A stretch of DNA of 60,056 nt, taken from the NCBI GenBank assembly GCA_022509145.1, contig JAFLTX010000005.1, forward strand, positions 1-60,056, read 5' to 3'. Source of the DNA: Muribaculaceae bacterium. GTDB taxonomy: Bacteria > Bacteroidota > Bacteroidia > Bacteroidales > Muribaculaceae. The notes below the pieces were generated by a model, which was given only the letters and a program-made list of their open reading frames with translations, was not told the origin of the DNA and made no database searches. The translations under genes were made by a program, and so were the position numbers. Below, in pieces: positions 2,131 through 18,052 of this stretch; position 1 is the stretch's first letter, and every line of letters starts with the position of its first letter.

Positions 2131-2160
2131 CCCCCGTACACACCAAATACCCCACAAATA

Positions 2161-2195
2161 GAAGAGGGGCTGCGGCACCACCGCAGCCCCTCTTC
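2161..2195. terminator. Bidirectional intrinsic terminator between rpoC and the capsule operon
   Basis: Perfect 15-bp inverted repeat: left arm 2161-2175, five-base loop 2176-2180, right arm 2181-2195. It lies 30 bases after the rpoC stop and 40 bases beyond the end of the last minus-strand capsule gene, so it can end both convergent transcripts. The U-tract is weak on both sides. Confidence 0.85.
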
Positions 2196-2235
2196 CGTTA
2201 CCTCAAAAAGCAATTTCTAACTTTTGTGAAAATAT

Positions 2236-2454
2236 TTACTCCATAAAATCCAAAATATCTTTCACTGTCTTAAACGTCTGAATCTTCTCTCCCGTGAGTT
2301 TCTTGTCGAATTCGTCATCAAACATTACTATAAGAGACAGTTTTGACATGGAGTCATAAGTTTCGATATCTTCCAAGGAAGTTTCAAGTTTAAGAGTACC
2401 TTCCTCCAACTCGAAGAGGTCTTCAAGAAGATAAATTTTTTCTTGTTGAGTCAT
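2236..2454 (-). CDS. Acyl carrier protein (first of two in the cassette)
   Basis: Small four-helix carrier that would hold an acyl or aminoacyl group on a 4'-phosphopantetheine arm. It has 72 residues, slightly short for an ACP, and is acidic. The attachment motif is DSM with Ser35, followed by a typical helix II (KLSLIVMFDDEF). It is the last gene of the minus-strand operon, 19 bases after the SDR gene. Its place next to an FabG-like reductase suggests it carries the KAS III product, whereas the second ACP (5127-5354) sits beside the adenylating enzyme. No holo-ACP synthase is present in the window, so priming must come from elsewhere. The cargo is unknown. Confidence 0.88.
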   Translation of the reverse strand: MTQQEKIYLLEDLFELEEGTLKLETSLEDIETYDSMSKLSLIVMFDDEFDKKLTGEKIQTFKTVKDILDFME

Positions 2455-2473
2455 AGTTATATATATTATTTTT

Positions 2474-3238
2474 TTATACTGTTAATCCTCCATCAATGAC
2501 CAAGCCGGTACCAGTGATTGTGCGAGTCGCGTCGCTCAGCAGAAATGCTATTAAATTAGCCACTTCGTAAGGCTCTGATGGCCCAAGTGGTGCATCAGCA
2601 ATCTCGCTACCCATCTGCAATGCAATCTCTCTGGACTTGCGAGCAAGAGGAGTTAGAACTTCTGCAGCTTGAATTGAATTGATTCTGATTTTTCTCGATG
2701 CGAGCTCAAGGGCCATGCATCGCACAAAAGCATCAACCGCAGCCTTTGAAACACAGTACTCAGTCTTCGCTTTATAACCTCGAAAACTGCTGACACTGGA
2801 CATTACAACAATACTTCCACCATCCTGCATGACACTCCGTTTCGTGAGTAGTCTGGTTAATTCTTCAAAACTGAAGAAATTGACAGCCATAACATTGGTA
2901 AATCCATCCGGTCTCAGCACATTGAGCGGTTTGCGTGAACTTATGCCTGCGCAATGAACAAAGCCGTTTATGGGGCCTGTTTGTTTCAGCAACGTTTTCA
3001 GTGTTTCATTGAGGTTGTCATATTCTGAAAGATTGCATACAATGGGTACGACTCTTTCAGAATTCAAATCAGCAGCAAGAATTTCCAAGGCTTCTTCGTT
3101 GACGTCCAATAGTATAAGGGATGCATTAAGCTTATGTAGTGTCTTCGCCGTTTCGAGACCAATACCAGATGCCGCACCCGTTATAAGAATTGTTTTCTCT
3201 CTGAAATCCAAAAAATTAAGCATATCATTAGAATCCAT
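2474..3238 (-). CDS. SDR-family oxidoreductase, FabG-like
   Basis: Classical short-chain dehydrogenase of 254 residues. The Rossmann motif TGAASGIG is at residues 20-27, HCAG stands in for the usual NNAG near 95-98, and the catalytic residues are Asn120, Ser148, Tyr161 and Lys165 (YCVSK). The fold and nearby ACPs and KAS III suggest NAD(P)H reduction of a 3-ketoacyl-ACP to the 3-hydroxyacyl form, but SDRs are versatile and a sugar or polyol substrate is possible. Its start overlaps the 3' end of the aldo/keto reductase gene by 11 bases, so translation is probably coupled. Met6 is an alternative start. Base composition is AT-rich like the rest of this cassette. Confidence 0.88.
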   Translation of the reverse strand: MDSNDMLNFLDFREKTILITGAASGIGLETAKTLHKLNASLILLDVNEEALEILAADLNSERVVPIVCNLSEYDNLNETLKTLLKQTGPINGFVHCAGISSRKPLNVLRPDGFTNVMAVNFFSFEELTRLLTKRSVMQDGGSIVVMSSVSSFRGYKAKTEYCVSKAAVDAFVRCMALELASRKIRINSIQAAEVLTPLARKSREIALQMGSEIADAPLGPSEPYEVANLIAFLLSDATRTITGTGLVIDGGLTV

Positions 3239-4139
3239 TCCAACCTTGATATTTTTTAGGAACGTTTTTGAGCAAGGGATAAGGGTTATAGTTCAAAAAC
3301 TTATTTCTATCAAGCGAATCAATCACTTTCATATCTTCTTCTGAGAGTGAGAAATCTAAAATTTCAATATTCTCTTTTAGATGCTTGGGGTTCCAGGTTT
3401 TGGGAATAATGGCTATATTTTGCTGAATAAGCCACCGCAATATTATCTGGGGGATTGTCTTTCCATATTTCCTGGCAATGGGAAGAATAGTCTCATTTTC
3501 TATTATTTCCGGGCGTGGTTCTATTGAACGAAAATGGCTGAAGGTCGACATTGCTTCCACAGCAATCCCTTTATCTTGACAATATTTTATTAACTTTTTC
3601 TGAGTGTTGAGAGGACTTATTTCAAATTGATTTACAGCAGGAACCACGTCAGACACATCCTGAAGCGACTCAATCATTGGTGGTAAAAATGAACTTACAC
3701 CTATAGCCCTGATTCTTCCTGCTTTATAAAACTCAGTAAGAACTTCATACATTTTAGGATACATCGGCCATGGTGTATGAACCAAGAACATGTCTATATA
3801 CTCAAATCCAAGATTTTTGAATGAGAGTTCTACGGCTTGCCTAATCGTACGACGGGGAATATTTAATATCTTTAGGGGCCCTCCATGATATCTTTTGAAG
3901 AAGAGGGCATCGGCATTTACTTTTGTGGTAATAAAAACCTCCTCTCTTTTAATTCCATATTGTTTAAGAGCAGATGCAATCTCTTTTTCATTGTGATATC
4001 TCCAAGCAGTGTCAAACTTTCTATATCCAAGGTCATAGGCAGTACGTATCGTTTCTCCGATTGTATCCTGCGGAATTAAGAAAGTTCCCAGCCCGATCTG
4101 AGGCATTTCAACACCATTGTTGAGGGTAATAATATCCAT
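3228..4139 (-). CDS. Aldo/keto reductase
   Basis: NADPH-dependent (alpha/beta)8-barrel reductase of 303 residues. The catalytic tetrad of the family is complete: Asp43 (FDTAW), Tyr48, Lys73 (ITTKV) and His121 (LVHTPW). C-terminal IPKTWNPKHLKEN is the usual NADP-phosphate binding segment. The substrate cannot be read from sequence. Within this cassette it might reduce a second carbonyl of the carrier-bound acyl group or a free aldehyde or ketone made from it. It lies 8 bases downstream of the ATP-grasp gene and overlaps the SDR, so it belongs to the same transcript. Confidence 0.9.
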   Translation of the reverse strand: MDIITLNNGVEMPQIGLGTFLIPQDTIGETIRTAYDLGYRKFDTAWRYHNEKEIASALKQYGIKREEVFITTKVNADALFFKRYHGGPLKILNIPRRTIRQAVELSFKNLGFEYIDMFLVHTPWPMYPKMYEVLTEFYKAGRIRAIGVSSFLPPMIESLQDVSDVVPAVNQFEISPLNTQKKLIKYCQDKGIAVEAMSTFSHFRSIEPRPEIIENETILPIARKYGKTIPQIILRWLIQQNIAIIPKTWNPKHLKENIEILDFSLSEEDMKVIDSLDRNKFLNYNPYPLLKNVPKKYQGWNGF

Positions 4140-4147
4140 TTGAAATA

Positions 4148-5125
4148 CTATTTAATTTTTTTCATCCGATCATAAATTGGATTATCAAAAGATTGAAACA
4201 TATCATGTCCAGCCGGACAATTCATTTCAATTAAATCAAATCCTTCAGGAGTTATTGCTATATCCCAACCTACATATCTTGCTTTAGGATAGACTTTTGT
4301 CAATTTTCTTACATATGAAATCAATTCCTTATATCGCGGCAATTCAAAGCCTATCATCTTCACATGGGAACCGGGATGAAAAATATAAGGCCTATTCTGC
4401 TTGTCTTTTCCAGGCATATTGCAAATCCCGGTTTCGATATCGAAATTATACCCAACGCCACCGGCTCCCCAATTGTCAACTTGAGAACCCGGTATTCCCG
4501 CACGGAGTATTACGCTTATAACTTCGGCTTCCCCTTCTCGTGGAGCAAGAGTTGTTACTCTCACCGTATTAAGAGAAGAAGAATTCACGTCCTTTAGCTC
4601 CTCGCAATTCATTACAGTTTCTTCGAGAATAAAAGGCTTTTCTTTTATAGCAGAAGCAAGTTCGCGAATCGTATCCTTATTGTCTTCCGAAAGTTTCATT
4701 ACTCCGATTCCTTGCTCACCGCTTACAGGTTTGGCAATTGCACTCTTATGTTTCTTGAGAAAATTTTCTATTGTATCGGCACTTGAGGTGGCATCAAGAA
4801 TCAAGTAATCTCGCTTTATAAAATCAGCGTAAGTTTTATATTCATTTACCTTACCGTTTATTGGAGTTTCCGCTGCTCCAAAGCGGTCTTTCATTTTAAA
4901 ATATCGTAAAATAGTGAGATAACGATTCTTTTCGCGAGCACTTTTGCGATGAAATTCAAATCTCACGTAATCAATGGGGCGGGCTCCGTATTTAAGCATA
5001 TTCCAGAGCATTTTGGCCTCCCAAATCAAGCGACTCCCACCTCCGGTTAAAGGTTGGCTTGCGAGGTTAGAAGACTGATCCCTCAGCTCGCAACAGGCTT
5101 GTTTGATACGCTTTAGAAGCTGCAT
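4148..5125 (-). CDS. Sugar-transfer-associated ATP-grasp protein
   Basis: Resembles the ATP-grasp family found in polysaccharide loci (325 residues). Visible features are the ATP-binding Lys in AKPVSGEQGIG (131-141), a FILEE strand, and the metal-binding end EMNCPAG with Glu300 and Asn302. ATP-grasp enzymes activate a carboxylate as an acyl phosphate and join it to an amine or thiol. Here the likely job is an amide or peptide-like bond in the surface glycan decoration, but the substrates are unknown. It sits between the second ACP (1 base away) and the aldo/keto reductase. The first ~80 residues are basic and helical and may be a family-specific lid or partner-binding region. Confidence 0.8.
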   Translation of the reverse strand: MQLLKRIKQACCELRDQSSNLASQPLTGGGSRLIWEAKMLWNMLKYGARPIDYVRFEFHRKSAREKNRYLTILRYFKMKDRFGAAETPINGKVNEYKTYADFIKRDYLILDATSSADTIENFLKKHKSAIAKPVSGEQGIGVMKLSEDNKDTIRELASAIKEKPFILEETVMNCEELKDVNSSSLNTVRVTTLAPREGEAEVISVILRAGIPGSQVDNWGAGGVGYNFDIETGICNMPGKDKQNRPYIFHPGSHVKMIGFELPRYKELISYVRKLTKVYPKARYVGWDIAITPEGFDLIEMNCPAGHDMFQSFDNPIYDRMKKIK

Positions 5126-5126
5126 A

Positions 5127-5354
5127 TCATGCTTTTTTTAATGAGTCAATCAAAGCTTGAATAGATTCAATCGAATTGAAATTGTCAGGGTCGAGTTCTG
5201 CTATGCGTATCTGTACATCGAAGACATCGTCAATTTCAGAGATTATCGACACTATGTCAAATGAATCAAGAATACCGTCATCAATTAAAGATTTTTCATT
5301 TTCAAAATCAATATCCGGTCTTACTGATTGAAGCAACTCTAATAATTTTTCCAT
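5127..5354 (-). CDS. Acyl/aminoacyl carrier protein, DltC-like (second ACP)
   Basis: 75-residue carrier protein with attachment Ser31 in DDGILDSFD and a helix II rich in acidic and aliphatic residues (IVSIISEIDDVFDV). The DSFD context and size resemble D-alanyl carrier proteins. It is packed between the GNAT gene (3 bases upstream) and the ATP-grasp gene (1 base downstream), and the next gene upstream is a DltA-like adenylating enzyme, so an aminoacyl cargo is a reasonable inference. The presence of two distinct ACPs in one nine-gene cassette suggests two different thioester pools. Pantetheinylation is assumed from the Ser and its context, not seen. Confidence 0.88.
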   Translation of the reverse strand: MEKLLELLQSVRPDIDFENEKSLIDDGILDSFDIVSIISEIDDVFDVQIRIAELDPDNFNSIESIQALIDSLKKA

Positions 5355-5357
5355 ATC

Positions 5358-6164
5358 TTATTTTTTAATCAATGATTGTGATGAGCGATTAGTGTATTTA
5401 AACCCGTAATCCTCATACATTTTTTTTGCTATTACGTTGAGATTTTGTACCCAAAGGGTGAACCGTGAAGCTCCTAACCGATGATTATTGTCTATAAAAT
5501 AATCCAGCAATTTTTTACCGATTCCGCGACTTCTAAAATCTGAATCAACGGCAATATGGGAGAGGTTGACTGTCTTCCCTTCGAGAGAGCGATGCACTGC
5601 TCCCATCAGTCGCCCGGTTTCCTTATCTATAGCCACTCCGATGTCTTTCGCTTCTAAAATTGCAGGATAGAAGGATGGTGCAACGTAGTCTCCGGTGTAG
5701 CGGTCAAAAACACGGTTGAATAAATCAAAACTGCAAGCAACTTCTTCAATTGATTCCGCATCACGCACTGCATCATCATACCGCGAAAATCCTGAATCGT
5801 CAGTTTTGAGGGTCATTGAATAATTGTCGCGCAAAATGTGAAGTTGCATTCCACATTGTTTAAGATAATCTGTTTCCGTTTCAATCCCCACAGAACCTGC
5901 ACGAAAGAGTATTTCAGCCGTAATCACTCCTTCCGGCAAAGCGAGAATTTCTTGAGGATTGTTAAGATAAAAGTAAAGTTGTTTAAACCCGTCTTTATCT
6001 TCAATAATGAAGAGATTGTCTTTTCCAATCACTGCCGACAATTTCCCTCCCTGAGCTAATTTCTCAGCTCTATGTGTGAGGTAATCATTGCTGATAGTTC
6101 CTTTATGATTGAAACTATCGGCAACTGAAAGATAGTCGGGGTAACTGAGTCTACTTTCCTTCAT
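5358..6164 (-). CDS. GNAT-family acyltransferase with degenerate N-terminal half
   Basis: 268 residues. The C-terminal ~130 residues form a GNAT domain with the acyl-CoA pyrophosphate loop RSRGIGK at 211-217 and the end strand MYEDYGFKY. The N-terminal ~130 residues look like a second, diverged GNAT half without a recognisable loop. GNATs transfer acyl groups from CoA, or sometimes from a carrier protein, to an amine. Next to an ACP and an amino-acid-activating enzyme it could acylate a carrier-bound amino acid or move the finished group to an amino sugar. Its first 14 bases overlap the end of the adenylating enzyme gene, which points to coupled translation. Confidence 0.82.
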   Translation of the reverse strand: MKESRLSYPDYLSVADSFNHKGTISNDYLTHRAEKLAQGGKLSAVIGKDNLFIIEDKDGFKQLYFYLNNPQEILALPEGVITAEILFRAGSVGIETETDYLKQCGMQLHILRDNYSMTLKTDDSGFSRYDDAVRDAESIEEVACSFDLFNRVFDRYTGDYVAPSFYPAILEAKDIGVAIDKETGRLMGAVHRSLEGKTVNLSHIAVDSDFRSRGIGKKLLDYFIDNNHRLGASRFTLWVQNLNVIAKKMYEDYGFKYTNRSSQSLIKK

Positions 6165-7680
6165 ATTTTGCTTTTAACGCGATACGGTCTATCTTCGCGT
6201 TCATACTGTAAGGCATTTCCGCCAAGAGAATCGTTTCGTCAGGAAACATATAAGCCGGTAATTTCTCTTTGATTCCGTTTACAATATCCCTTGCCTCACC
6301 GTCATCGGTCGTATAATAGAGGATTATTTTGTCGTTGACGTTATCGAAGATGCAAGCGGCATTGGTCACACCCTCTATTGAATTAATTGCAACTTCAATT
6401 TCTCCCAATTCAATTCTATTCCCTTTATGTTTTATTTGGAAATCCTTTCTTGAAAGAAACATCAACTCGCCTCGTTCATTATACTTAGCGATATCTCCGG
6501 TCTTGTAAATACGGTCAAAATAATGAGGATTAAGAGGATTTTGTACGAACACTTCGCTCGACTTCTCGAAATTGTTGTAATAGCCCAGTGCCACTCCCGA
6601 CCCTCTGACGCAAATTTCGCCTGGTTCTCCGTCTTTCGCTTCTAAGCCTTCCTCAGTGATCAAAAGCACTTGTTTGTTACGGCAATTCTTCCCTATTGGG
6701 ATATATTCATCATCATTAAACTGTCTGTCAACTATATAATAAGTGCAGTCTACTGAAATTTCGGTAGGACCATAAAGATTGGCAAAAGTCACTCCATTCA
6801 ATTTATCCATCCACACATTGAGCTGCTTTGCCGGCATTGCTTCTCCGGCAAATGTCACCAAACGTAGATGTTGTGGCAATGTTGTTTCGAGTATTTTGCT
6901 GTTTCCAATCAGCATGATTGCTGATGTGGCCCAAAGTATTGCAGTGACTCTTCTTTCATTCAGAAACGGAATAAGCAGCTTGGGGAAACTGAAATATTTC
7001 CTTCCGATTACATTGAGGGTTGCTCCCGCTTTAAGGCAGATGGCAATATCTTTAACGGAGCCGTCAAAGTAGAAGGGCGTTTGATTCCCCAAAGAATCCG
7101 ATTCTGAGAAATTAAATGTATCTACGAGCCAATTGGCCAAATCCAACATGCCCCTATGAGGCACTACCACTCCTTTTGGTACTCCCGTAGAACCACTTGT
7201 AAAGATTGCATAGACCGGGTCAAGGTCTATAATTTGACAACGAAGTTTCCCAAGCATGTCAGCCTTTGCGATTTCGGGATGCAAAGTTGCAAACGAATAG
7301 TCAATCAGCGGAATATTTAAATTTAGATTCTCTGCCAATATCTTATCTTTAGGCGTACACGTTACTGCTGCTATCGGGTTAAGCGTATCGCAAATAAGTT
7401 GGATTCTTTCCTGAGGCATCTTGTTATCTATAGGCACATAAAAATTGCCCGATGCCGAGACTCCCATAAATCCCGCCAGACACTCGATTGTGCGATCCGT
7501 AAAGACCAAAACAGGCTTTCGAATAGAAGACTCCGTCTCCGTTGCAATCATAGTGCCTATAATGAGTGCAGCCGTATGCCACTCCTTAAACGTCATAGCC
7601 TGTTTGTCGTCTGCTATGGCAGTTTTGTTGGGCCATATACCCGCAGCTCTTTCAAGTAAATCAAAGATATTGGTTGTCAT
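6151..7680 (-). CDS. Amino-acid adenylating enzyme, DltA/NRPS A-domain-like
   Basis: Stand-alone adenylation domain of 509 residues. It has the ATP loop TSGSTGVPKG (161-170), YGPTE (303-307), a YKTGD motif and the catalytic C-terminal Lys496 (NAKIDR). The A4 motif reads FYFDGSV, and its Asp206 corresponds to the Asp that binds the alpha-amino group in amino-acid-activating members such as PheA and DltA. The enzyme therefore probably makes an aminoacyl-AMP and loads a carrier protein, most likely the ACP at 5127-5354. It starts with a TAATG overlap on the KAS III stop codon. The choice of amino acid cannot be read reliably without a structural model. Confidence 0.9.
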   Translation of the reverse strand: MTTNIFDLLERAAGIWPNKTAIADDKQAMTFKEWHTAALIIGTMIATETESSIRKPVLVFTDRTIECLAGFMGVSASGNFYVPIDNKMPQERIQLICDTLNPIAAVTCTPKDKILAENLNLNIPLIDYSFATLHPEIAKADMLGKLRCQIIDLDPVYAIFTSGSTGVPKGVVVPHRGMLDLANWLVDTFNFSESDSLGNQTPFYFDGSVKDIAICLKAGATLNVIGRKYFSFPKLLIPFLNERRVTAILWATSAIMLIGNSKILETTLPQHLRLVTFAGEAMPAKQLNVWMDKLNGVTFANLYGPTEISVDCTYYIVDRQFNDDEYIPIGKNCRNKQVLLITEEGLEAKDGEPGEICVRGSGVALGYYNNFEKSSEVFVQNPLNPHYFDRIYKTGDIAKYNERGELMFLSRKDFQIKHKGNRIELGEIEVAINSIEGVTNAACIFDNVNDKIILYYTTDDGEARDIVNGIKEKLPAYMFPDETILLAEMPYSMNAKIDRIALKAKYEGK

Positions 7681-8792
7681 TACTTGTCAATATATAATTG
7701 ATTGGGATTAGTAAAGAGACCTTCATCAAAAATTTCATCATCTTCAAAAATGGGAAGAATGTCTGAAGTTTTGATGTCAAACGATGCAACCCCGTAAGAT
7801 ACACCTATCCCGAAGCCACATGCCATAACTCGGATGATAGAGTTGCTGTTGTCATCTCCATATCGGTCGCAAAGCGAACCGATGGCAGAGGCACCAGATG
7901 TGTTCCCATATCTGTCGAGGGTTATTGGCATTTTACCAAAATCTATTTTGGTCTTTTTTGCTATCTGCTGCAAAATGTAGAGATTGGCTTGGTGGAATGC
8001 AAAACAGTCGTAGCTTTCTGGGGTTGTTTCTGTCTTTGCCCAAAATTCTTTTATTATTCTCGGCACATCAAAAATGGTAAAGGTAAACACTGAAGTGCCG
8101 CGTATGAAGGAATTCATAAGGGAACGCGGGTTTCCGTCTTCACACATAACCGGCTCATCCGAAGCGTTCAGATTCCTATAACCTCCACCCGGTATTATCA
8201 TGTATTTAAACCCGCTTCCATCGCTCTTTATGAGCACTTTGATTTCATCGGCTTCCGATTCAGTCTTTTCAAGGAGCATCACTGCGCCAGCTTCACCAAA
8301 GAGCATGGCACTGCTCCGGTCTTCCTTACAAACTGATTTTCCCGCTGTATCACCTACGAATAAAAGGGCTTTCTTTACATCACTTGTTGCAATTATCGAC
8401 CCCACGGTCTGCATGCCTACAACAAGAGAAGAGCATCCAAGGCTTACGTCGTAACACACGGCATCTTTCGGCAGCCCCAATCTATACTGAAGCACAAAGG
8501 CAGTGGCAGGGCGCCGATAGTCAGGACTATGCGAAGCAAATATCAAAGCCCCAATCTCTTCGGCCGATATTCCCTTTCGATCTAACAGCTCCTTAGCTGC
8601 GCGATAACCAAGATCTGAACAAGTCTGATGCTCTGAGGTGCGATGAGAGCTCTTCACACCGGTCATCTTTATAAATTTTTCAACTTCCTCCTCGCCAAAT
8701 ATAGGTTTATATGAGTCGGTTGAAACTTTATTGGAAGGAACAGCACATGCTATGCCACCAACTTTAATATTATTAAATCCGAAAAATGCCAT
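7680..8792 (-). CDS. 3-oxoacyl-ACP synthase III-like condensing enzyme
   Basis: KAS III/FabH-family ketosynthase of 370 residues, somewhat longer than E. coli FabH (317). The catalytic triad is complete: Cys120 (SLGCSS), His267 (AFHQAN) and Asn297 (RYGNTSG). These enzymes prime chain elongation by condensing an acyl-CoA with malonyl-ACP. In this cassette the product would be a short beta-ketoacyl group on one of the two ACPs, reduced by the SDR at 2474-3238. Since core fatty acid synthesis genes are not nearby, this copy is probably dedicated to glycan decoration. It lies 2 bases downstream of the PglD-like gene and overlaps the next gene by one base. Confidence 0.9.
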   Translation of the reverse strand: MAFFGFNNIKVGGIACAVPSNKVSTDSYKPIFGEEEVEKFIKMTGVKSSHRTSEHQTCSDLGYRAAKELLDRKGISAEEIGALIFASHSPDYRRPATAFVLQYRLGLPKDAVCYDVSLGCSSLVVGMQTVGSIIATSDVKKALLFVGDTAGKSVCKEDRSSAMLFGEAGAVMLLEKTESEADEIKVLIKSDGSGFKYMIIPGGGYRNLNASDEPVMCEDGNPRSLMNSFIRGTSVFTFTIFDVPRIIKEFWAKTETTPESYDCFAFHQANLYILQQIAKKTKIDFGKMPITLDRYGNTSGASAIGSLCDRYGDDNSNSIIRVMACGFGIGVSYGVASFDIKTSDILPIFEDDEIFDEGLFTNPNQLYIDK

Positions 8793-8794
8793 CG

Positions 8795-9427
8795 TTAAAA
8801 ACTGATTTTTTTTGCGGGATTTCCGAACACTGTGGTATCCGCTTTGACATTTGAAATAACAACACTCCCGATACCTACCACAGCATTATCCCCGATTCGT
8901 TTTGAGGGTGCAACAAGAACACCGCATCCCATATAGACGGATTCTCCCACATGCACATGTCCATTCAGAGCACACCGCCCGCTGAGAGTAGACCAGTCTC
9001 CAACGCATGCATCGTGAGCAACACTTGACCCCAAAATACTGGAAAACCGTCCTACCTTGGCATTTGCACTTACCACGCTGTTTGGCGTAAGAACTGCACC
9101 CTCGCCAATCTCTGCAAAATTATGGATTGTTGCAGATGGATGAATGAAAGTAATAAAGTACGCCCCTCTGGCAACAAGCTTTTCAACCACATATTTCTTT
9201 ACTTTTGGGAAAGCAAGCGCGCAAATGAAATTTTCGTCTTCTTTTGGCTGCCAATCGTTGATGGTACCAAGAATCGGATAATTGCAGGGATAACCCTCTA
9301 AAGCCTGAAGATTGTCATCAATGAAACCTAAGATTTCCCATTGTGGAGAAACATTGTTGGCATCTGCTATATATTGAATCAGCTCGCGGCCAAATCCGCT
9401 CGCACCAACAATTATTAACTTCTTCAT
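8795..9427 (-). CDS. PglD/NeuD-family sugar O/N-acyltransferase
   Basis: 210 residues in two parts: an N-terminal Rossmann-like domain (GASGFGRE at 8-15) and a C-terminal left-handed beta-helix of hexapeptide repeats. The presumed catalytic base is His138 (SSVAHDA), and the C-terminus ends in the acyl-CoA binding GNPAKKI. Relatives acetylate UDP-4-amino sugars (PglD) or sialic acid (NeuD). No 4,6-dehydratase or sugar aminotransferase is present in the window, so the acceptor amine is unexplained. It is the first gene of the AT-rich cassette, and an exact promoter match lies just upstream (9471-9502), giving a leader of about 40 bases. Confidence 0.88.
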   Translation of the reverse strand: MKKLIIVGASGFGRELIQYIADANNVSPQWEILGFIDDNLQALEGYPCNYPILGTINDWQPKEDENFICALAFPKVKKYVVEKLVARGAYFITFIHPSATIHNFAEIGEGAVLTPNSVVSANAKVGRFSSILGSSVAHDACVGDWSTLSGRCALNGHVHVGESVYMGCGVLVAPSKRIGDNAVVGIGSVVISNVKADTTVFGNPAKKISF

Positions 9428-9470
9428 TATGGTTTGGTTTTCTGTTTGTTTTGGGGGCTTTCTTCAGGGG

Positions 9471-9502
9471 CAAAATTACTAAAAATTATGCTATAAATCA
9501 AA
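9471..9502 (-). promoter_or_regulatory. Internal promoter of the ACP/KAS III cassette
   Basis: On the minus strand: -33 box TTTG (9499-9502), exactly 20 bases, then -7 box TAATTTTG (9471-9478). The predicted start is near 9467. It lies in the only sizeable gap (146 bases) of the capsule operon, exactly at the boundary between GC-richer glycosyltransferase genes and the AT-rich cassette. This is a Bacteroidota consensus match read directly from the sequence; activity is inferred. Confidence 0.75.
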
Positions 9503-9573
9503 TTTAGGACCCCTTCGCCATATATTTAAAATTAGTCTTGGGAGCAGTTATCTTACTGATGACGGTTTGACAT

Positions 9574-10704
9574 CTAAAGGGAGCGATACATCTCGAGGGT
9601 GGCTGCCCAGACGTCGGGTCGGCTGAAGCGCTCAATTACCGACGGTCGCGCTGCTTTCGCCATCGCCTTGCGCTCAGACTCATCCGTGAGCAGCTCCTCC
9701 ATGGCGGCATAAAGCGCGTCTTCATCGCCCTTAGGTACAACGATACCGTTCAGTCCAGTGGTGACTGCATCGGTGGCGCCATTCACATCGCTCACGACTA
9801 CCGGCACTCCCATCGACAGTGCTTCGAGCACCACGTTAGGGAACCCTTCGCGGTATGAAGGCAATACGAAGACGTCGCTGCTCTTCAGGTAAGGGCGCAC
9901 ATCCGAGGTGTAGCCTGCCTCCAAAATGTTTTCATTCCTTTTTATCTCCTCTACGATTTCGGCAGGGAGGGGGTCCAGATCCTGCTCAAAATTGCCGAGG
10001 AGCACGAGCCTCGTCTCTGGATGGCGCTCGTTGAGCCGCTTGAAAGCCCCCACGAGCTCCGCCACGCCTTTATCCTTCACCAATCTTCCCATAAAGAGAT
10101 AGGTAAACTTCCCGTCGGCTTTTTCCCGGAGGGGAGCTGCCGCCGCGATCACGTCAGGGGCTTCCGGATTGAAATGAGCTGTGTCCACCCCGTTGCCGCT
10201 CCCGTTGAGAATCACTTTGAGGGGTTTCTTGGTGATACGCTCCCTACGCAACACTTCAGCCACACCGTTGCTCTGCGGCACGACTTTGGTGGCGCAAAGG
10301 CAGGTGATTTTCTCCATCAGAATCAGTATCTTGCGCAGACGTCCGGTGGTGGTTTCAAAGCGCAGGCCGTTGGCGTTGTAGACGCGATGCGGCACCCGAG
10401 CCAACTTTGCGGCCATCATTGCCAGCAACGCGCCTTTCGGGGTGTTGGCGTGCACGATATCGGGCTTTTCTCGCCTGAAAAGGGTGTAGAGTTTCCTCAG
10501 CGATTTGAGGTCCGCTCCGATGCTGATTTCGCGCTTCATCGGGATGTGAAGGTGTTTCACCCCCTCGCGTTCAGCTATCTCCGCGAGCCGCCCTGTATCG
10601 TTGGCCACGAGAGTGATGTCGAAATGGTCTGAAAGATAGCGGATTTGCCCCTTGAGCAATCCCAGCGTGATGTCGTGGGCCGTAATCCTGAACAGCTTTT
10701 TCAT
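9574..10704 (-). CDS. Glycosyltransferase family 4
   Basis: GT-B retaining glycosyltransferase of 376 residues, cytoplasmic and peripheral to the membrane. The acceptor-side N-terminal domain contains HANTPKGAL (85-93). The C-terminal donor domain carries FMGRLVKDKG and the EX7E signature (Glu287 to Glu294 in EGFPNVVLE). Members such as PglA and TuaC add a HexNAc or hexose from a UDP-sugar to a lipid-linked oligosaccharide. The pathway genes in this operon make UDP-GalNAc or UDP-GalNAcA, so one of these is a plausible donor. Its base composition is clearly GC-richer than the genes on either side. It lies 24 bases after the GT2 gene. Confidence 0.93.
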   Translation of the reverse strand: MKKLFRITAHDITLGLLKGQIRYLSDHFDITLVANDTGRLAEIAEREGVKHLHIPMKREISIGADLKSLRKLYTLFRREKPDIVHANTPKGALLAMMAAKLARVPHRVYNANGLRFETTTGRLRKILILMEKITCLCATKVVPQSNGVAEVLRRERITKKPLKVILNGSGNGVDTAHFNPEAPDVIAAAAPLREKADGKFTYLFMGRLVKDKGVAELVGAFKRLNERHPETRLVLLGNFEQDLDPLPAEIVEEIKRNENILEAGYTSDVRPYLKSSDVFVLPSYREGFPNVVLEALSMGVPVVVSDVNGATDAVTTGLNGIVVPKGDEDALYAAMEELLTDESERKAMAKAARPSVIERFSRPDVWAATLEMYRSL

Positions 10705-10728
10705 CCGGCAAAACTTTTGATGGAATGA

Positions 10729-11682
10729 TTATTTCTTAATAGCGTGTATAAGCTTGTAAGTGAATTTGATTCCGAAAATCTTGGCAAAGAGAGCGATAAA
10801 CCATTTCAGAGAGACCGGCACTTTCCTGAAAGTCTTCCACGGAAGGTATCTCTTCATGTAATCCGAGAACAGCTTCCCGTCATATTCCTTGCTTCTTAAG
10901 ATGATGGAAACTTTCCCAATGCGAGAGTGCCACACCAGGCTCTCCAATTCCCCATAATTAATATTGGCAATCATCCAATCCAAAATAAATATTTGATTAT
11001 GGATGGTTGCAAGATTATAATAATGACTTAAGCTGTTGGCTTCCGGGTCGTAACAATAATGATAAAGACAATCGTTAATAAATTCAACCTTTAACGGGCC
11101 AGACGACAGCACCTTACAGGTAAACAGAGCATCTTCGCCACTGTTGATTCCCGGTTCAAAATAGAGGCCATTTTCTTTTATGACTGACATTCGTACTAAT
11201 TTACCCCAAGACGAATTGTTATTATTTAATAATAGCTTGAGTAAAATTCTCGAACTTTCAGTCTCTGAAGTCTGAAAATTTGATTCTGAACTTTCACCGG
11301 TAGCATCATTATCTTTAAAGAAATTGAAAATCACTACATCAGCATTCTTCTCCTTAGCTGTCTTGTAGGCTTTCTCATAAGCAGTTGGCTCAACCCAATC
11401 ATCTGCATCGCAATGTATAATGTATTCACCCCTTGCGTTATTCAGTGCGGTTTGGCGTGCTTTTCCCAATCCTCCGTTTGGAGTAGAAATGGTCTTGAAC
11501 CGTGGATCGGCTTTGCTGTACTCTTCACAAATAGCGCGGCTTCCGTCGGTGCTTCCGTCGTCTACAAGGATAAATTCGATATCTTGCAGGCTCTGATTCT
11601 TTAAAGAGTCGAGGCAACGCCTGAGCACTTTCTCTTTATTGTAGATCGCAACGCCAACTGAAACGGAGGGTGATGAGTCCAT
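10729..11682 (-). CDS. Glycosyltransferase family 2
   Basis: Inverting GT-A glycosyltransferase of 317 residues. It shows the nucleotide-binding start SVGVAIYNKE, the DDGSTD motif at 41-46 and the metal-binding DADD at 92-95, followed by a basic, aromatic C-terminal segment that probably contacts the membrane. It would add one sugar of the repeat unit on undecaprenyl diphosphate at the inner face of the membrane. Donor and linkage cannot be read from sequence. It lies 12 bases from the polymerase gene and is moderately AT-rich. Confidence 0.93.
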   Translation of the reverse strand: MDSSPSVSVGVAIYNKEKVLRRCLDSLKNQSLQDIEFILVDDGSTDGSRAICEEYSKADPRFKTISTPNGGLGKARQTALNNARGEYIIHCDADDWVEPTAYEKAYKTAKEKNADVVIFNFFKDNDATGESSESNFQTSETESSRILLKLLLNNNNSSWGKLVRMSVIKENGLYFEPGINSGEDALFTCKVLSSGPLKVEFINDCLYHYCYDPEANSLSHYYNLATIHNQIFILDWMIANINYGELESLVWHSRIGKVSIILRSKEYDGKLFSDYMKRYLPWKTFRKVPVSLKWFIALFAKIFGIKFTYKLIHAIKK

Positions 11683-11694
11683 ATATTGTTTATT

Positions 11695-12912
11695 TTAGAT
11701 TACAAACCACGTTATTCTGAAATTCAATCCTTCGTAAATAAGGAGCGGAAGCGGTGCGTACCATAGATCGGGAGTCACCATGCGAGGAGCGTTGAAGAAC
11801 AGATAAGCAATGGAATAAAAATTAAAGAATGCGAAGGAATAAATCCACTGCTTCGCATTCAGTTGCAGTCTATTGATTAGCAACGGGAAGAGGACAAACA
11901 GCGAGCACCATGCTAAATTTACGAATCTCATAGCAGTGTCGGTCAATGCCATGCTGAAAAGAGCCGTAATGCTCAATATGATGGTGAATAGGAAGAGATT
12001 GCGGGTAAAAGCCGACAACGTCTTAAAATTGGTTTTATAAATCAAAATCAGCAGTGAGAGCGTCAAGCCTATTTTGCTTATAATATTGAAAATTGTGGTG
12101 AAAAGGATATTGGCTGCCCTGTACGCTGTTTGCTCATGTTGGATGGCTGATGTCTCGGGAGAAGTATACGCGTTGATTTTAACTTCAAGAGCTTCGTTGT
12201 CGATATCCAACATATCGATATATCCCTGCGCAAATTGTCCCAGGTTGATAAAAGAGACTACGAATGCGATTATAAGTAACGGAATGGACAAGTTTTTAAT
12301 CTTGAATATTTTCCCAAGAAAGACGTACACTACAAAAGCCCCGGAAGCAACGATCAACGAGAAGTGAATAAAACAAGGTATCAACGCACCGATGGCCCAC
12401 AACCGTTTCCCTTTTATAAAATTGATTGCAGAGAGTAAGAACAGCAACCCACCGGTATAGAACCTAACTCCGGTCATGTGGACCAGCGAAATGTTGCTGA
12501 TTACTATCAGCACATAAAGATAGAAGCCAAAAGATCTTGTCGTCGGCCAGAATTTATAGACGTTTACGAATACGGCATAAGAGAGGACTCCATAGATCAG
12601 CCCGATAAAAGCGCAGAGTATCTTTGGATTGGAAGTGAAAGGGGAGAGATAGTAGAATAGGAGGGAAGAATATAGGTCCGGTCTATCTCCTTCATTATAT
12701 AGGTCGAAAGCATTCGAAGCATTGTATGCCGTTTGGAATTTATAACCGATTCTGGCGATATCGGCACTTATCAGCTCGAAGTGGTTGCAATAGCCGAACA
12801 GGGCATAAAAAGCAATGAAGATAAACGCCAGCGCAGGCTTGCGGATGTCGCTCAGGCTGTAGACAAACGCAAAGAACGGGAAAAATATGAAGAACAGTAT
12901 CGGGAGTATCAT
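11695..12912 (-). CDS. EpsG/Wzy-like polysaccharide polymerase
   Basis: Integral membrane protein of 405 residues with roughly ten or more hydrophobic segments, an arginine-containing loop TGVRFYTGG and long periplasmic loops, as in EpsG-family polymerases. It would join lipid-linked repeat units in the periplasm. The open frame extends upstream to 13080, but I choose the ATG at 12912: it forms an ATGA overlap with the flippase stop, and the extra 56 residues are basic, cysteine-rich and lie inside the flippase gene. Assignment rests on topology and context, because polymerases diverge strongly in sequence. Confidence 0.82.
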   Translation of the reverse strand: MILPILFFIFFPFFAFVYSLSDIRKPALAFIFIAFYALFGYCNHFELISADIARIGYKFQTAYNASNAFDLYNEGDRPDLYSSLLFYYLSPFTSNPKILCAFIGLIYGVLSYAVFVNVYKFWPTTRSFGFYLYVLIVISNISLVHMTGVRFYTGGLLFLLSAINFIKGKRLWAIGALIPCFIHFSLIVASGAFVVYVFLGKIFKIKNLSIPLLIIAFVVSFINLGQFAQGYIDMLDIDNEALEVKINAYTSPETSAIQHEQTAYRAANILFTTIFNIISKIGLTLSLLILIYKTNFKTLSAFTRNLFLFTIILSITALFSMALTDTAMRFVNLAWCSLFVLFPLLINRLQLNAKQWIYSFAFFNFYSIAYLFFNAPRMVTPDLWYAPLPLLIYEGLNFRITWFVI

Positions 12913-14435
12913 ACGAAGCGGTGGATTACGGCTCTGAACGGAGCGCTCGTCAGCCAAAGGAGGAGCCCATAGATTATTGTGAAAATAGCAACTCCCGGCA
13001 ATACATTGATAATCAAAGCGCCGAGATTGACGGCGGCAGAGGTGGGGAAGAAGGGAGCTATGTAGCCGGTGGCAATCCATGCTGCTGCCATCGTGACGCT
13101 CAGATTGAGCATCTTCGCCCAGAAGTTTCCGAACCCCGTTTTGAGCTTATATTTGAAGAGGTAGAAAGGTTTCCACCCGAATGCGATAATCACGATGCTG
13201 ATCAAGACTCCGGCAATGACTCCGTTGAGACCCCAGAGGATACCCAGCCAGACGGAGAGCCCGATATTGATCACGACCTCGGCAATCGACGCCCATACGT
13301 CGCCGAAATATCCATAGGCAGAGAGAAAATCGTAGACCACGTAGCGGTTTACGTAAAAGAAGAATTGCGCCACGAGCAGCCCGAGCGTAAGGGGCTCGAG
13401 AAGATATTCAGCCCCGAGCCACCAGGAGATGAACAGTTGGCCTCCGTGCCACATCCCAAAGCAAAGCACTCCGATAACATAAAACCGTATGGCGAAAAGC
13501 TGGTCGAACACCTTGAGGATATGTCCTTTCTCGCTGGTATGAACCAGGTTCCCAATCCCTGCCAACATCCCGTTGAACATTGCAGAGAGCAGGCTGATGA
13601 TACCATTTATCAGGATCATATAGTTGCCGTAAAGCGTAACCAGTGTGAGGGTGGAGAGTCCGTAGATGATGATGGGACTTGTCTGGAACAGTACGAAGCC
13701 CGAAATCTTCTGCACAAACAGCTGCTTTATTTTTTTGATTATTTCGGGATACTTCTTCCTCAACGTTTTGAACCCTTCCTGGCATTTCTCCAATGCCGGG
13801 AAGGTCTTCTTTACCGTGAGATGCAGGCTGAACGAGGCTATGCAGGCGAATCCGACTTCCAGTCCAAGCCACCAGAAGTATGGGTAGGGGAACAGTTCCA
13901 TAGCCAGAATCTGAGCCACCACCTTGCAGGCCACCACCAACTTATAAGAGAAGATGATCTTATAATTCTGCTGGTTGGCGCTGAGCAGGAACTGCTTGTA
14001 GTTGAAGAAATATCCGATAAGCGAGGAGAAGAGGAGCACACTGAAGGAAGCGTAGGCATACCAAAGCGGGAGCTCCATCTTCTTGAATATGAAGGGGAAA
14101 AATCCCATCAAAACAGCAGCTGCAAGGATAATCAGACCTCCGATGCGCCGATAGAGATGACCGTTGAGAGTGACTATTCTATTTATCTCGTCGTAATTGT
14201 TTTCGTGCAGCGGTTTGTAAAGAGATGTGGCGATGGCTGTCCAGACACCCATCTCGGCAAGATTGAGGAATTGGAGCAGGTTGACGGCCGTGGTATTGAG
14301 ACCCAAAATCTCCGTGCCGAGATATTTCAGGAAGATAACACGCGAATAAAATTCCAGAACAAGGTTGATGAAATACATCCCCATTGCCGCGGAGCTGTTC
14401 CATACGCTTTTCCTTGTTCTCGAAATGGCCGTCAT
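12909..14435 (-). CDS. Wzx-type oligosaccharide flippase (MOP superfamily)
   Basis: 508 residues with about 12-14 transmembrane segments spread evenly over the length. The N-terminus (SSAAMGMYFINLVLEFYSR) is typical of polysaccharide exporter members of the MOP superfamily in Bacteroidota. It would flip undecaprenyl-diphosphate-linked repeat units to the periplasm for the polymerase encoded next to it. The stop codon overlaps the polymerase start (ATGA at 12909-12912), so the two are translationally coupled. Upstream lies the RimK-like ATP-grasp gene with a 46-base gap. Confidence 0.92.
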   Translation of the reverse strand: MTAISRTRKSVWNSSAAMGMYFINLVLEFYSRVIFLKYLGTEILGLNTTAVNLLQFLNLAEMGVWTAIATSLYKPLHENNYDEINRIVTLNGHLYRRIGGLIILAAAVLMGFFPFIFKKMELPLWYAYASFSVLLFSSLIGYFFNYKQFLLSANQQNYKIIFSYKLVVACKVVAQILAMELFPYPYFWWLGLEVGFACIASFSLHLTVKKTFPALEKCQEGFKTLRKKYPEIIKKIKQLFVQKISGFVLFQTSPIIIYGLSTLTLVTLYGNYMILINGIISLLSAMFNGMLAGIGNLVHTSEKGHILKVFDQLFAIRFYVIGVLCFGMWHGGQLFISWWLGAEYLLEPLTLGLLVAQFFFYVNRYVVYDFLSAYGYFGDVWASIAEVVINIGLSVWLGILWGLNGVIAGVLISIVIIAFGWKPFYLFKYKLKTGFGNFWAKMLNLSVTMAAAWIATGYIAPFFPTSAAVNLGALIINVLPGVAIFTIIYGLLLWLTSAPFRAVIHRFV

Positions 14436-14481
14436 TTCTATCCTGATACTTTGCTAATTATCAATGATTAATTGATAAAGG

Positions 14482-15534
14482 TTAGCTTTGTTTCCCGGTA
14501 GCAAGAATGTTTTTCAAAATTTCTTGCGGAGCGTTCATCGGTGTGTCGTGCCAATTCCCTTCGCGATCGAAGTAGCCGCCAGCGCCTAAAATGGCTTCAT
14601 GTGAGAACCCATAAGACATCTCCACAATCTTCCCAAGTCCGGTGCGATTGTCAACAACATAATCGAATCCGTTACATTGGAGCTTCAAATCATCCGCCGT
14701 CTTGAAGGCGGAGTCAATTATCTGCTTGGTAATCTTGCTATGATCGTATTGGAACGTGCCACCTCCGGATGCACGGAAGTCATGGCTTCTAATGGGCCGC
14801 ATAAAATAGGAGAGCTTGTCGCCAACCACGGCGATTTTGAGGTCAAAACCATCGTTGGGGATAAACTCCTGGAGATACACATATCCCTTCTCTTTGGGGA
14901 ACTTTTTAGCCCCGCGGAGCGTGCGGAAGAATTCGGGCGCACGCTTCGCCTTTGCCACAAATGTAGCCCAGTCTTTCGAGGCGCGTATGTTTGACGAGGT
15001 CTTATACATCAAACTCGGCGCGGCGTTTAACCCGTTTCCGAACATCTTTGAGGCATAACCCATGAGTTGGGATTTGCTTTTGATCATCTTGACGTTGTGG
15101 CTCCCTGAGCCGCTGCGGAGCTTGGCCACAATGGGGAACTCTATGTCGCCTCTTTCGATTGCCTCCTCTATCGTTTTTTTGTAGAAAAACAAGAACGATT
15201 TAGGTATCGGTGCTCCGATTGCCTCCAGAGCCAGCATCTCGGCCACCTTGTCGTCGAAATGCCAGGCGTCGTCGAAATTGGGGAACGTCTTCAACCCGAG
15301 AATCGATGCCGTATAGAATATATGCCGGGCCATCAGCATGTCGCGGAAGTTGTATTGCCCGAAATGATAAAGCAAAACGTCAAACTCTTTCAACGTCTCC
15401 ACGATATCTTCCACCTCATAAAGATTGATAATCTGATAATCGATATTATTTTCGATACAATACTCCTCCCACGGTCTCACCCAGGAAGTGGAATGCATTT
15501 TTTGCGATTTGTCGCCTTGAATCAATACTCTCAT
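14482..15534 (-). CDS. RimK-like ATP-grasp ligase
   Basis: 350-residue ATP-grasp protein. The N-terminal third is a pre-ATP-grasp domain. The core contains FPIVAKLRSGSGSHNV (ATP-binding Lys and glycine-rich loop), the YLQEFIP hinge strand and the FDLKIAVVGD segment. RimK relatives join an amino acid to a carboxylate. It lies between the flippase and the UDP-sugar dehydrogenase genes, so amidation of a uronic acid carboxyl by an amino acid or amine is an attractive inference, but lipid or protein substrates are possible. It differs in sequence from the second ATP-grasp gene at 4148-5125, so this is not a recent duplication. Confidence 0.82.
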   Translation of the reverse strand: MRVLIQGDKSQKMHSTSWVRPWEEYCIENNIDYQIINLYEVEDIVETLKEFDVLLYHFGQYNFRDMLMARHIFYTASILGLKTFPNFDDAWHFDDKVAEMLALEAIGAPIPKSFLFFYKKTIEEAIERGDIEFPIVAKLRSGSGSHNVKMIKSKSQLMGYASKMFGNGLNAAPSLMYKTSSNIRASKDWATFVAKAKRAPEFFRTLRGAKKFPKEKGYVYLQEFIPNDGFDLKIAVVGDKLSYFMRPIRSHDFRASGGGTFQYDHSKITKQIIDSAFKTADDLKLQCNGFDYVVDNRTGLGKIVEMSYGFSHEAILGAGGYFDREGNWHDTPMNAPQEILKNILATGKQS

Positions 15535-15544
15535 ATAGTTTTTA

Positions 15545-16816
15545 TTAGAGGTTTTGGGTTGTGTCGGGGAGGAAGTGGGAGGTTTTTACGTCGAAGATTA
15601 CGTGGTCGGGATTGAGGAGCGGGGTGATGTCAAGGCCGGAGAAGGCTTCGTGGGCCACGGCCAGAATCACGGCTTCGAAGTCGGCCTTCGCCGGCAGCTC
15701 GGTGAGGATCTCGATCCCATACTCTTTCCTGACGTCGTCCTTGTCGGCATAGGGGTCGTAGACGGTGACGTTCATGTTATACTCCTTTAGCGCCTTCACG
15801 ATATCGATGACCTTGGTGTTGCGCACGTCGGGGCAATTCTCCTTGAACGTGAACCCGAGCACCAGCACGTCGCTGCCAAGCACCTTGATTCCCTTCTTGA
15901 GCATGAGCTTTATGACGCGGTCGGCCACATAGGGGCCCATGCTGTCGTTCATCCGGCGTCCGGCCAGGATGATTTCGGGATTATAGCCGTATCTTTGGGC
16001 GCACTGTGCCAGGTAATACGGGTCGACGCCGATGCAATGGCCGCCCACAAGCCCCGGCTTGAAGGGGAGGAAATTCCACTTGGTGGAGGCCGCCTCCAGC
16101 ACGTCGGCCGTCTCTATCCCCATGAGATGGAATATCTTGGCCAATTCGTTGACGAACGCTATGTTGATGTCACGCTGCGAATTTTCAATCACTTTGGCAC
16201 CCTCGGCCACCTTGATGGTAGGCGCCAGATGTGTGCCGGCGGTGATCACGGAAGAGTAAACCGAATCAACCAGCCTTCCCACCTCCGGAGTGGAGCCCGA
16301 GGTCACCTTCTTGATCTTGTCTACGGTATGCAGTTTGTCGCCGGGGTTGATGCGCTCGGGAGAGTAGCCGGCATAGAAATCACGGTTGAACTTCAGGCCC
16401 GACACCCTCTCCACCACCGGGATGCAGTCGTCTTCGGTAACGCCTGGATAGACGGTGGATTCATACACCACTATAGCACCCGGGCTAATCACCTTCCCCA
16501 CAGTCTCGGACGCACCGATAAGCGGCCGGAGGTCGGGATTGTTGTTTACATCCACCGGGGTGGGGACGGCCACAACGTAGAAGTTGCAGTCGCGGATGTC
16601 GTCTATATTCGAAGTGCACACCAGGCCATGATTCCTGATTGCGTCCTGCAGAAGCTCGTCGGAGACCTCGAGCGTGGAGTCGTGTCCCTCCATAAGCTCC
16701 TTGACGCGGCTCTCCTTCATGTCGAACCCCACGGTGGGATATTTCGTGGAGAAGAGACGGGCCAGCGGCAAACCGACGTAGCCCAGACCTATGACGCAGA
16801 TTTTGATTTGTTGCAT
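15545..16816 (-). CDS. UDP-N-acetyl-hexosamine 6-dehydrogenase (WbpO/TviB-like)
   Basis: NAD-dependent four-electron dehydrogenase that oxidises C6 of a UDP-HexNAc to a uronic acid. It has 423 residues, with the NAD motif GLGYVG at 10-15, the substrate segment YSPERINPGD, the catalytic Cys261 in GGHCIGVDPYYL and the C-terminal UDP-binding domain with FKENCPDVRN. The pairing with a 4-epimerase gene (16854-17828) matches the tviB-tviC and wbpO-wbpP arrangement, which makes UDP-GalNAcA from UDP-GlcNAc. UDP-ManNAcA is less likely because no 2-epimerase is present nearby. Thirty-seven bases separate it from the epimerase gene. Confidence 0.92.
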   Translation of the reverse strand: MQQIKICVIGLGYVGLPLARLFSTKYPTVGFDMKESRVKELMEGHDSTLEVSDELLQDAIRNHGLVCTSNIDDIRDCNFYVVAVPTPVDVNNNPDLRPLIGASETVGKVISPGAIVVYESTVYPGVTEDDCIPVVERVSGLKFNRDFYAGYSPERINPGDKLHTVDKIKKVTSGSTPEVGRLVDSVYSSVITAGTHLAPTIKVAEGAKVIENSQRDINIAFVNELAKIFHLMGIETADVLEAASTKWNFLPFKPGLVGGHCIGVDPYYLAQCAQRYGYNPEIILAGRRMNDSMGPYVADRVIKLMLKKGIKVLGSDVLVLGFTFKENCPDVRNTKVIDIVKALKEYNMNVTVYDPYADKDDVRKEYGIEILTELPAKADFEAVILAVAHEAFSGLDITPLLNPDHVIFDVKTSHFLPDTTQNL

Positions 16817-16853
16817 AATGGCGTTAATGTGTGAAATTTCTTAAGATTGAGTA

Positions 16854-17828: not shown

Positions 17829-17911
17829 ACAGTCAGACAGTTTTGCGGTATCAAGTAAGTCATTTCATCATCGGTAAAGCCGACGGTAAACACCTCTTTG
17901 CGGCATAAGCT

Positions 17912-17928: not shown

Positions 17929-17944
17929 CTGCTTTTCCTGATTG

Positions 17945-17999: not shown

Positions 18000-18052
18000 A
18001 ATCATGAAGTACGGAGAGGGATGCCTCGGAGTGGAACGAGGCTTGGTTGGCG

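Follow-up and report, generated by a model that had tools for sequence, protein, structure and literature searches.

What is built by a compact run of nine genes at the end of a polysaccharide operon in a Muribaculaceae bacterium? The genes lie at positions 2236-9427, minus strand, of a 60,056-nt window, by which we mean the whole stretch of DNA analysed (contig JAFLTX010000005.1 of assembly GCA_022509145.1; contig C59 of a 2.06-Mb draft genome, 88% complete). They bring two acyl carrier proteins (ACPs) and the ketosynthase KAS III together with an amino-acid adenylating enzyme, which we call AdeA. Based on domain content, gene neighborhoods and phylogeny, we give an even chance to the reading that this is an R-group cassette, in which a capped aminoacyl group would be elongated by KAS III, reduced and placed on a sugar amine by a PglD-like acyltransferase.

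A nine-gene run and its conserved core

All nine open reading frames (ORFs) named in a preliminary description, which was made from the sequence alone, are present and packed as it had said, neighboring genes either overlapping slightly or lying no more than 19 nt apart. The run opens with a PglD/NeuD/VioB-type left-handed beta-helix acyltransferase (PglD; 8795..9427), which matches Pfam PglD_N and Hexapep and scores 184 against the NeuD/PglB/VioB family TIGR03570 of NCBIfam (cut-off 160.8). After 2 nt comes KAS III (7680..8792), with Pfam matches to ACP_syn_III and its C domain; the catalytic triad is intact as claimed (Cys120, His267 and Asn297) and Arg94 occupies the position of FabH Phe87. 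AdeA (6151..7680; Pfam AMP-binding, NCBIfam, Protein Data Bank (PDB) sequence match) overlaps KAS III by 1 nt and overlaps by 14 nt a GNAT (5358..6164) whose C-terminal acetyltransferase domain (residues 172-255) matches Pfam Acetyltransf_1. Across a 3-nt gap lies ACP2 (5127..5354), a predicted aminoacyl carrier with nearest name DltC, followed after 1 nt by an ATP-grasp protein of the 'sugar-transfer associated' family (4148..5125; PF14397, E = 4.8e-38) and after a further 8 nt by an aldo/keto reductase (AKR; 3228..4139; Pfam Aldo_ket_red, nearest name DkgA). The latter overlaps by 11 nt a FabG-like ketoreductase of the SDR type (2474..3238; Pfam adh_short_C2, NCBIfam), and 19 nt beyond it the run closes with ACP1 (2236..2454; Pfam, NCBIfam), a fatty-acid-type acyl carrier predicted to hold malonyl and ketide groups. 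Both ACPs keep the serine motif (DSM in ACP1, DSF in ACP2); against the Pfam PP-binding cut-off of 20.8 bits, ACP1 scored 21.8 and ACP2 slightly below it, at 18.8.

The statement that no core fatty-acid or peptide synthetase genes accompany the run held, with neither condensation-domain nor FabF-type families matching in the scanned operon ORFs. A plain non-ribosomal peptide synthetase (NRPS) was rejected, since the adenylating enzyme and the ACPs are all free-standing proteins and no condensation domain was matched in those ORFs. The G+C content of the cassette is 40.9%, compared to 50.0% for the remaining operon and 58.6% for an rpoC-like gene nearby, a contrast that would be in keeping with its having been acquired in one piece.

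To find the cassette in other genomes, AdeA was used as the marker (E <= 1e-80), with three to five candidates scored per genome so that all counts are lower bounds. Including the window's own genome, matches were found in at least 6 of 397 genomes of the family, at least 7 of 295 of the order and at least 2 of 395 of the phylum, giving 12 other genomes. Neighborhoods were readable in ten of these (G099, G652, G569, G1014, G459, G304, G179, G226, G242 and G338), while the contigs of G036 and G132 end at AdeA. A tblastn search of 72,556 plasmid records returned one match, on a 2.7-Mb Paenibacillus cellulosilyticus replicon (NZ_CP054613, locus L071), so that the window, the ten genomes and this replicon make up 12 readable cassettes. 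Locus L004, whose contig stops right after KAS III, was not counted, and a Mariniphaga contig (L005), which reads PglD-KAS III-AdeA and then ends, was counted only for KAS III and PglD. A query with the AdeA of locus L097 (G179; the second of two AdeA types described below; E <= 1e-100) matched only the window's own genome among 395 genomes of the class, and the cassette is therefore rare outside the order in the sampled genomes.

Every one of the 12 readable cassettes has a single gene run that contains AdeA, ACP2, KAS III, ACP1, one or more SDRs and a cap enzyme, which is a GNAT in 11 of them and a formyltransferase in one. In 13 of 13 loci, the Mariniphaga contig included, KAS III and AdeA are no more than three genes apart. 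PglD is present in 11 of the 12; the exception is Paenibacillus, which carries an Antibiotic_NAT-family acyltransferase in its place, and G338 carries both. The ATP-grasp family (ATPgrasp_ST) occurs in three cassettes (the window, G099 and G652) and the AKR in the window alone, and both are accessory. The nine families thought to form a unit thus do recur together, but what is conserved is a set of seven functions.

The cassette of G099 is the clearest glycan case, with a gene row of PglC-like protein, PglD, KAS III, AdeA, GNAT, ACP2, ATP-grasp, SDR, ACP1, aminotransferase and PglF-like dehydratase. PglC-, PglE- or PglF-like genes adjoin the cassettes at L037, L066, L068, L097, L100 and L101, and amino-sugar pathway and glycan assembly genes occur together at L037. 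In G652 the gene run extends over ~11 kb with ACP1 at its far end; this locus also holds four consecutive ATPgrasp_ST-like genes (L064:744-5249; 40%, 30%, 28% and 25% identity to that of the window), preceded by a PGA_cap/GDSL fusion protein.

A further observation concerns a metallo-beta-lactamase (MBL)-fold protein, which accompanies all seven readable cassettes of the second of two AdeA types described below (type II) and one of five of the first (type I). The genes are at L066:3845-4480, L068:6026-6691, L096:10272-10901, L097:4107-4739, L098:4799-5440, L100:13836-14465, L101:16193-16846 and L071:11618-12316, and the nearest NCBIfam names of the two proteins scanned were glyoxalase II and solanimycin SolJ. 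In G338 a carboxyltransferase-family gene (L101:16854-18401) starts 7 nt after the MBL gene and may serve extender-unit supply.

Predicted amino-acid activation, capping and ketide extension

AdeA had been described as a DltA-like adenylating enzyme; it is an adenylating enzyme, but a better description is a stand-alone NRPS-type amino-acid enzyme. It scored 316.9 against the amino-acid adenylation model TIGR01733 (NCBIfam cut-off 317.4), its best PDB sequence match is LgrA (6mfy) and it falls far below the DltA cut-offs (274.7 and 261.4 versus 476 and 559.85). Membership in a DltABCD system was rejected on these scores and on those of DltC (37 and 29 versus 68 and 52.35), and MBOAT (DltB-type) had no Pfam match among the nine cassette proteins.

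AdeA sequences separate into type I, which includes that of the window, and type II (support of 97/99 and 99/96, respectively, against three long outgroup rows). At position 239 (PheA numbering), Lys is found in all six type I rows and Phe, His or Tyr in all seven type II rows; L067, apart from these rows, has Leu. The pocket residues of the window's AdeA (D206, G207, K210, L249, T276, A278, L302, V310, D311 and K496) spell DGKLTALVDK, and because this resembles a putative Glu code, our guess is that type I enzymes use an acidic amino acid.

KAS III follows the same division, with a type I-linked clade (100/98) and a type II-linked clade (100/100). At position 87 in FabH numbering, which lines the acyl pocket, seven of seven type I proteins have Arg, while those of type II have Met (6) or Ile (1). 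Together, the Lys of AdeA and the Arg94 of KAS III in the window hint at an acidic amino acid. FabH Trp32, Arg36 and Arg249, which bind coenzyme A (CoA), are absent from all 33 non-FabH KAS III rows; this loss fits a carrier-bound primer, and is equally true of loci without AdeA. Within types, pairwise distances of KAS III and ACP2 were the best correlated of ten protein pairs (r = 0.92, compared to 0.74 for KAS III and ACP1), with the L097 formyltransferase left out of the GNAT alignment.

The gene called a GNAT does encode an acetyltransferase domain, but has in addition an N-terminal part of ~140 amino acids that lacks a Pfam match. A second GNAT copy in this part found no support when the halves were compared by hhalign (probability 0.9%). 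In L097, the slot between AdeA and ACP2 belongs to a formyltransferase, with a match to PF00551 (E = 1.9e-33) and with ArnA and Fmt as its nearest names; it overlaps each neighbor by 4 nt, and no cassette-type GNAT was found elsewhere in the stretch read. This replacement makes capping of the amino acid the most likely role of the GNAT; most simply, either enzyme would block the amine of aminoacyl-ACP2. By this swap, the product first described as an 'acyl and/or N-acyl-aminoacyl' group would narrow to an N-capped aminoacyl group plus a ketide unit. The tracking of KAS III clades with AdeA types, the pocket residues and the cap swap all favor, indirectly, KAS III as the enzyme that would extend an aminoacyl thioester with malonate.

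A proposed pathway and its alternatives

In the pathway that we propose, AdeA would activate an amino acid (in type I, probably an acidic one) and load it onto ACP2, where the GNAT would acetylate its alpha-amine. KAS III would then be primed with the N-acetyl-aminoacyl group from ACP2 and condense it with malonyl-ACP1, and the SDR would reduce the resulting beta-ketone to leave a gamma-acetamido-beta-hydroxyacyl (statine-like) thioester on ACP1. The PglD-like enzyme would use this thioester to acylate the amino group of a nucleotide-activated amino sugar (UDP-Qui2NAc4N, if the analogy holds), and glycosyltransferases, flippase and polymerase would incorporate the acylated sugar into the polysaccharide, with the ATP-grasp protein and AKR modifying the group further or acting elsewhere in the glycan. 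The gene families, the catalytic residues, the conserved co-occurrence, the glycan-locus context and the formyltransferase of L097 are observed; each reaction, the sequence in which they would run and the identity of amino acid and sugar are inferred. The suggestion that the cassette builds an acyl or aminoacyl group on dedicated carriers is supported by the conserved neighborhoods, several of them with PglC-, PglE- or PglF-like genes, while attachment to the glycan is again deduced. We hold, at somewhat less than even confidence, the wider view that the cassettes represent a fully dissociated seven-protein pathway by which these bacteria would decorate surface polysaccharide with statine-type units (gamma-acylamino-beta-hydroxy acids, here from an acidic amino acid), with two specificity types in which the AdeA and KAS III pockets vary in step, swappable N-caps (acetyl or formyl) and different end-transferases (PglD or Antibiotic_NAT).

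Several results weigh against this pathway. The formyltransferase swap is a single case, and the nearest names of that enzyme include the sugar formyltransferase ArnA; such enzymes formylate sugars too. The acidic reading leans on a putative Glu code for which a literature text search returned no match. Constraining the 14 KAS III sequences linked to the two AdeA types to a single clade is rejected (p = 0.002 in the approximately unbiased test, a value to be read with the long branches in mind), and the partnership therefore arose twice or was re-partnered. Among the 19 remaining non-FabH rows, one, L038 (G033; 51% identity), also has Arg at position 87, although the 30 kb read there contain no AdeA; this residue does not necessarily sense the side chain of an aminoacyl group. 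ACP2 leads ACP1 only weakly in the distance correlations: the order flips in 5.5% of 200 column bootstraps, removal of L068 gives 0.92 versus 0.93 and the ACP1 value depends on which of two L101 ACP1s is chosen (0.63 with the alternative). Structure predictions were too poor to be used for either the GNAT (single sequence, mean predicted local distance difference test (pLDDT) score 35.9) or KAS III (three sequences, mean pLDDT 58.9).

Elsewhere in the window, a PglC-type initiating sugar transferase at 47077..47688 (minus strand; 65% identity to that of the G099 cassette) is a candidate partner only. Counting against the pathway, a PglE-like protein (59% to that of L037) and a PglF-like protein (42%) are on other contigs of the draft genome, the former on C78, adjoining a urease gene, and the latter on C25. 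The sugar therefore remains a guess. A further point against it is that ACP-dependent pathways need an AcpS-type enzyme, and the AcpS family (PF01648) had no match in the draft genome, perhaps due to an assembly gap. Malonyl transfer could come from a FabD-type protein on contig C18.

Four other explanations were weighed. In one, which we consider unlikely, KAS III and SDR would make a 3-hydroxyacyl-ACP1 from acetyl-CoA, the GNAT would move this ketide to the amine of aminoacyl-ACP2 and PglD would transfer the result, for example an N-(3-hydroxybutyryl)-aminoacyl amide, to the sugar. The same gene inventory would suffice, and N-[(R)-3-hydroxybutyryl]-L-alanyl is known on 4-amino-4,6-dideoxyglucose, according to a review (PMC3210612). 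However, the formyltransferase that replaces the GNAT in L097 is not expected to move a ketide, which makes such a transfer by the GNAT unlikely, and the scheme would not need KAS III clades that track AdeA type. GNATs also normally use acyl-CoA as donor. A slightly less likely candidate is that two parallel decorations are made, an N-acetylaminoacyl group by AdeA, GNAT and ACP2 and a separate hydroxyacyl group by KAS III, SDR and ACP1, at different positions. N-acetylalanyl, N-acetylglycyl and 3-hydroxybutyryl amino sugars are each natural, according to the same review (PMC3210612); an extra hexapeptide-type match lies near three of 11 PglD-bearing cassettes (L064, L096 and L101). In the last of these, KAS III and ACP1 are each duplicated and an Antibiotic_NAT acyltransferase is present too. 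The other eight of the 11 have a single PglD-like match in the stretch read, though, and both halves occur together in all 12 cassettes, with KAS III clades tracking AdeA types.

Very improbable in our view is a diffusible small molecule whose genes lie in polysaccharide loci by chance. It would suit the Paenibacillus core, which sits between release-factor/secA genes and argC/argJ-like genes, has Antibiotic_NAT and no PglD match, and among whose scanned ORFs no glycan gene was recognized; PglD and sugar or glycosyltransferase genes, on the other hand, surround 11 of the 12 readable cassettes. We rate a cyclized product as at least equally improbable: the acyl group proposed for it appears as an O-antigen component in the subject index of PMC3210612 and would formally be alanine plus acetoacetate, and MBL-fold proteins accompany type II cassettes and L068, but neither an MBL nor a cyclase family had a Pfam match in the window cassette, and an N-cap would block ring closure via nitrogen.

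Genomic setting, related systems and significance

The cassette forms the end of a polysaccharide operon whose upstream part spans 9574..17828, also on the minus strand, and which is faced by the rpoC-like gene (our reading of the ORF list, made without a family search). Moving upstream from the cassette, all on the minus strand, we found a GT4 (9574-10704) and a GT2 glycosyltransferase (10729-11682), a polymerase-like gene (11695-13080; EpsG 24.4 versus a Pfam cut-off of 30.1), a flippase-like gene (12909-14435; named from size and position, without a Pfam or NCBIfam match), a RimK-like ATP-grasp (14482-15534) and genes whose nearest names only are TviB dehydrogenase (15545-16816; 539 versus a cut-off of 592 bits) and TviC epimerase (16854-17828; 365 versus 760 bits). 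The polymerase-like and flippase-like ORFs overlap by 172 nt, and the true start of the former is probably further in. Within 14482-17828, the TviB- and TviC-like genes suggest a UDP-GalNAcA building block, which the adjacent RimK-like enzyme could amidate with an amino acid. The operon thus holds glycosyltransferases and sugar-nucleotide genes, but no aminotransferase. PDB matches of the cassette's own ATP-grasp protein were of ankyrin type and were read as chance. In positions 1-19900, 42 promoter-like sites were counted versus 24.1 expected (standard deviation (s.d.) 6.0) and 27 terminator-like sites versus 21.1 (s.d. 4.9); the promoter scan found no promoter-like site on the minus strand of the 9428-9573 gap between the cassette and the upstream genes.

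KAS III relatives (E <= 1e-60, own genome included) were found in 11 of 200 relatives and 20 of 295 genomes of the order, and are commoner than the AdeA-type cassette. Neighborhoods were read in 20 of the 27 non-own genomes (G222, G239, G243, G266, G276, G322 and G365 were left out). An SDR was near KAS III in 19 of the 20, a BLAST-detected ACP1 in 15 and PglD in 12, compared to a close AdeA in only one (G099); three more had an AMP-binding protein of 19-24% identity. The nearest named relative is that of L004, from an uncultured Prevotellaceae (78%).

With a dedicated ACP, a Cys-His-Asn KAS III, a ketoreductase and a PglD/VioB-type acyltransferase together, this part of the window cassette is of the known vio/wfp kind, to which the window adds an amino-acid module: AdeA, ACP2 and the cap enzyme, constant in 12 of 12 cassettes. 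In the Pseudomonas syringae viosamine island, an ACP, a KAS III (vioS), vioR and vioB are assigned to 3-hydroxybutyryl on an amino sugar; mass spectrometry was used to read mutants of vioR and vioM (and earlier of vioA, vioB and vioT), while vioS and acp were named by homology (PMC3927599). The island shares ACP, KAS III, ketoreductase and VioB-type acyltransferase with the window, whereas its seven genes lack an ATP-grasp, an aminoacyl carrier and its cap enzyme, and an enzyme that adenylates amino acids. The Flavobacterium psychrophilum O-antigen, the analogy drawn in the preliminary description, has R1 genes wfpC-G for 3,5-dihydroxyhexanoyl on Qui2NAc4N, with roles predicted from sequence and the R-group determined by nuclear magnetic resonance (PMC6519341). 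It fits the ACP/KAS/SDR/PglD half (wfpD; wfpC and wfpE; wfpF; wfpG, a pglD homologue), but it has two KAS genes and the available text names no amino-acid activation, leaving the amino-acid module outside the analogy. Aeromonas group II flagellin glycosylation islands likewise place an ACP (orf1), a 3-oxoacyl-ACP reductase (orf2) and an AMP-dependent synthetase (orf3) within a glycan locus (PMC7874193); there, however, luxE and luxC are present, the authors read fatty-acid genes and the available text names no KAS III, GNAT or amino-acid activation.

Precedents for the amino-acid module come from other pathways. DltA and DltC also pair a free adenylating enzyme with a small carrier, and ACP2 has DltC as its top-scoring name in NCBIfam (37 bits), whereas the window has KAS III and a cap enzyme and stays below both Dlt cut-offs. 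LgrA of linear gramicidin is a formylating initiation module whose formylated aminoacyl carrier matches the AdeA-formyltransferase-ACP2 run of L097; it is a multidomain NRPS, unlike the separate proteins of the window. In vicenistatin biosynthesis (VinN/VinL/VinM), a discrete ACP is charged by a stand-alone adenylating enzyme, and masking of the amine precedes elongation with ketide units (PMC11284099). This aminoacyl-ACP starter is like that proposed here, but the protection is aminoacyl rather than acetyl or formyl, and the starter feeds a modular polyketide synthase and a macrolactam rather than a glycan. Among the listed open-access literature matches, judged by title or the opening of the abstract, none described amino-acid activation, a cap, KAS III and PglD in one conserved glycan cassette. 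The combination that the preliminary description did not recognize as described is therefore known in its ACP/KAS III/SDR/PglD part, while the AdeA-GNAT-ACP2 triad appears to be new.

Serotype and recognition depend in part on the acyl groups of surface glycans, whose genes are mostly annotated as 'acetyltransferase-like'. The cassette would be a compact and genetically recognizable route to amino-acid/ketide hybrid groups on glycans, and AdeA, the cap enzyme, ACP2 and KAS III would form a marker set for finding such glycans in genomes. It consists of separate small enzymes, which are easy to purify and assay, and its two types, with matching changes in the AdeA and ketosynthase pockets, would offer a natural series in which to study the choice of aminoacyl primer by a KAS III.

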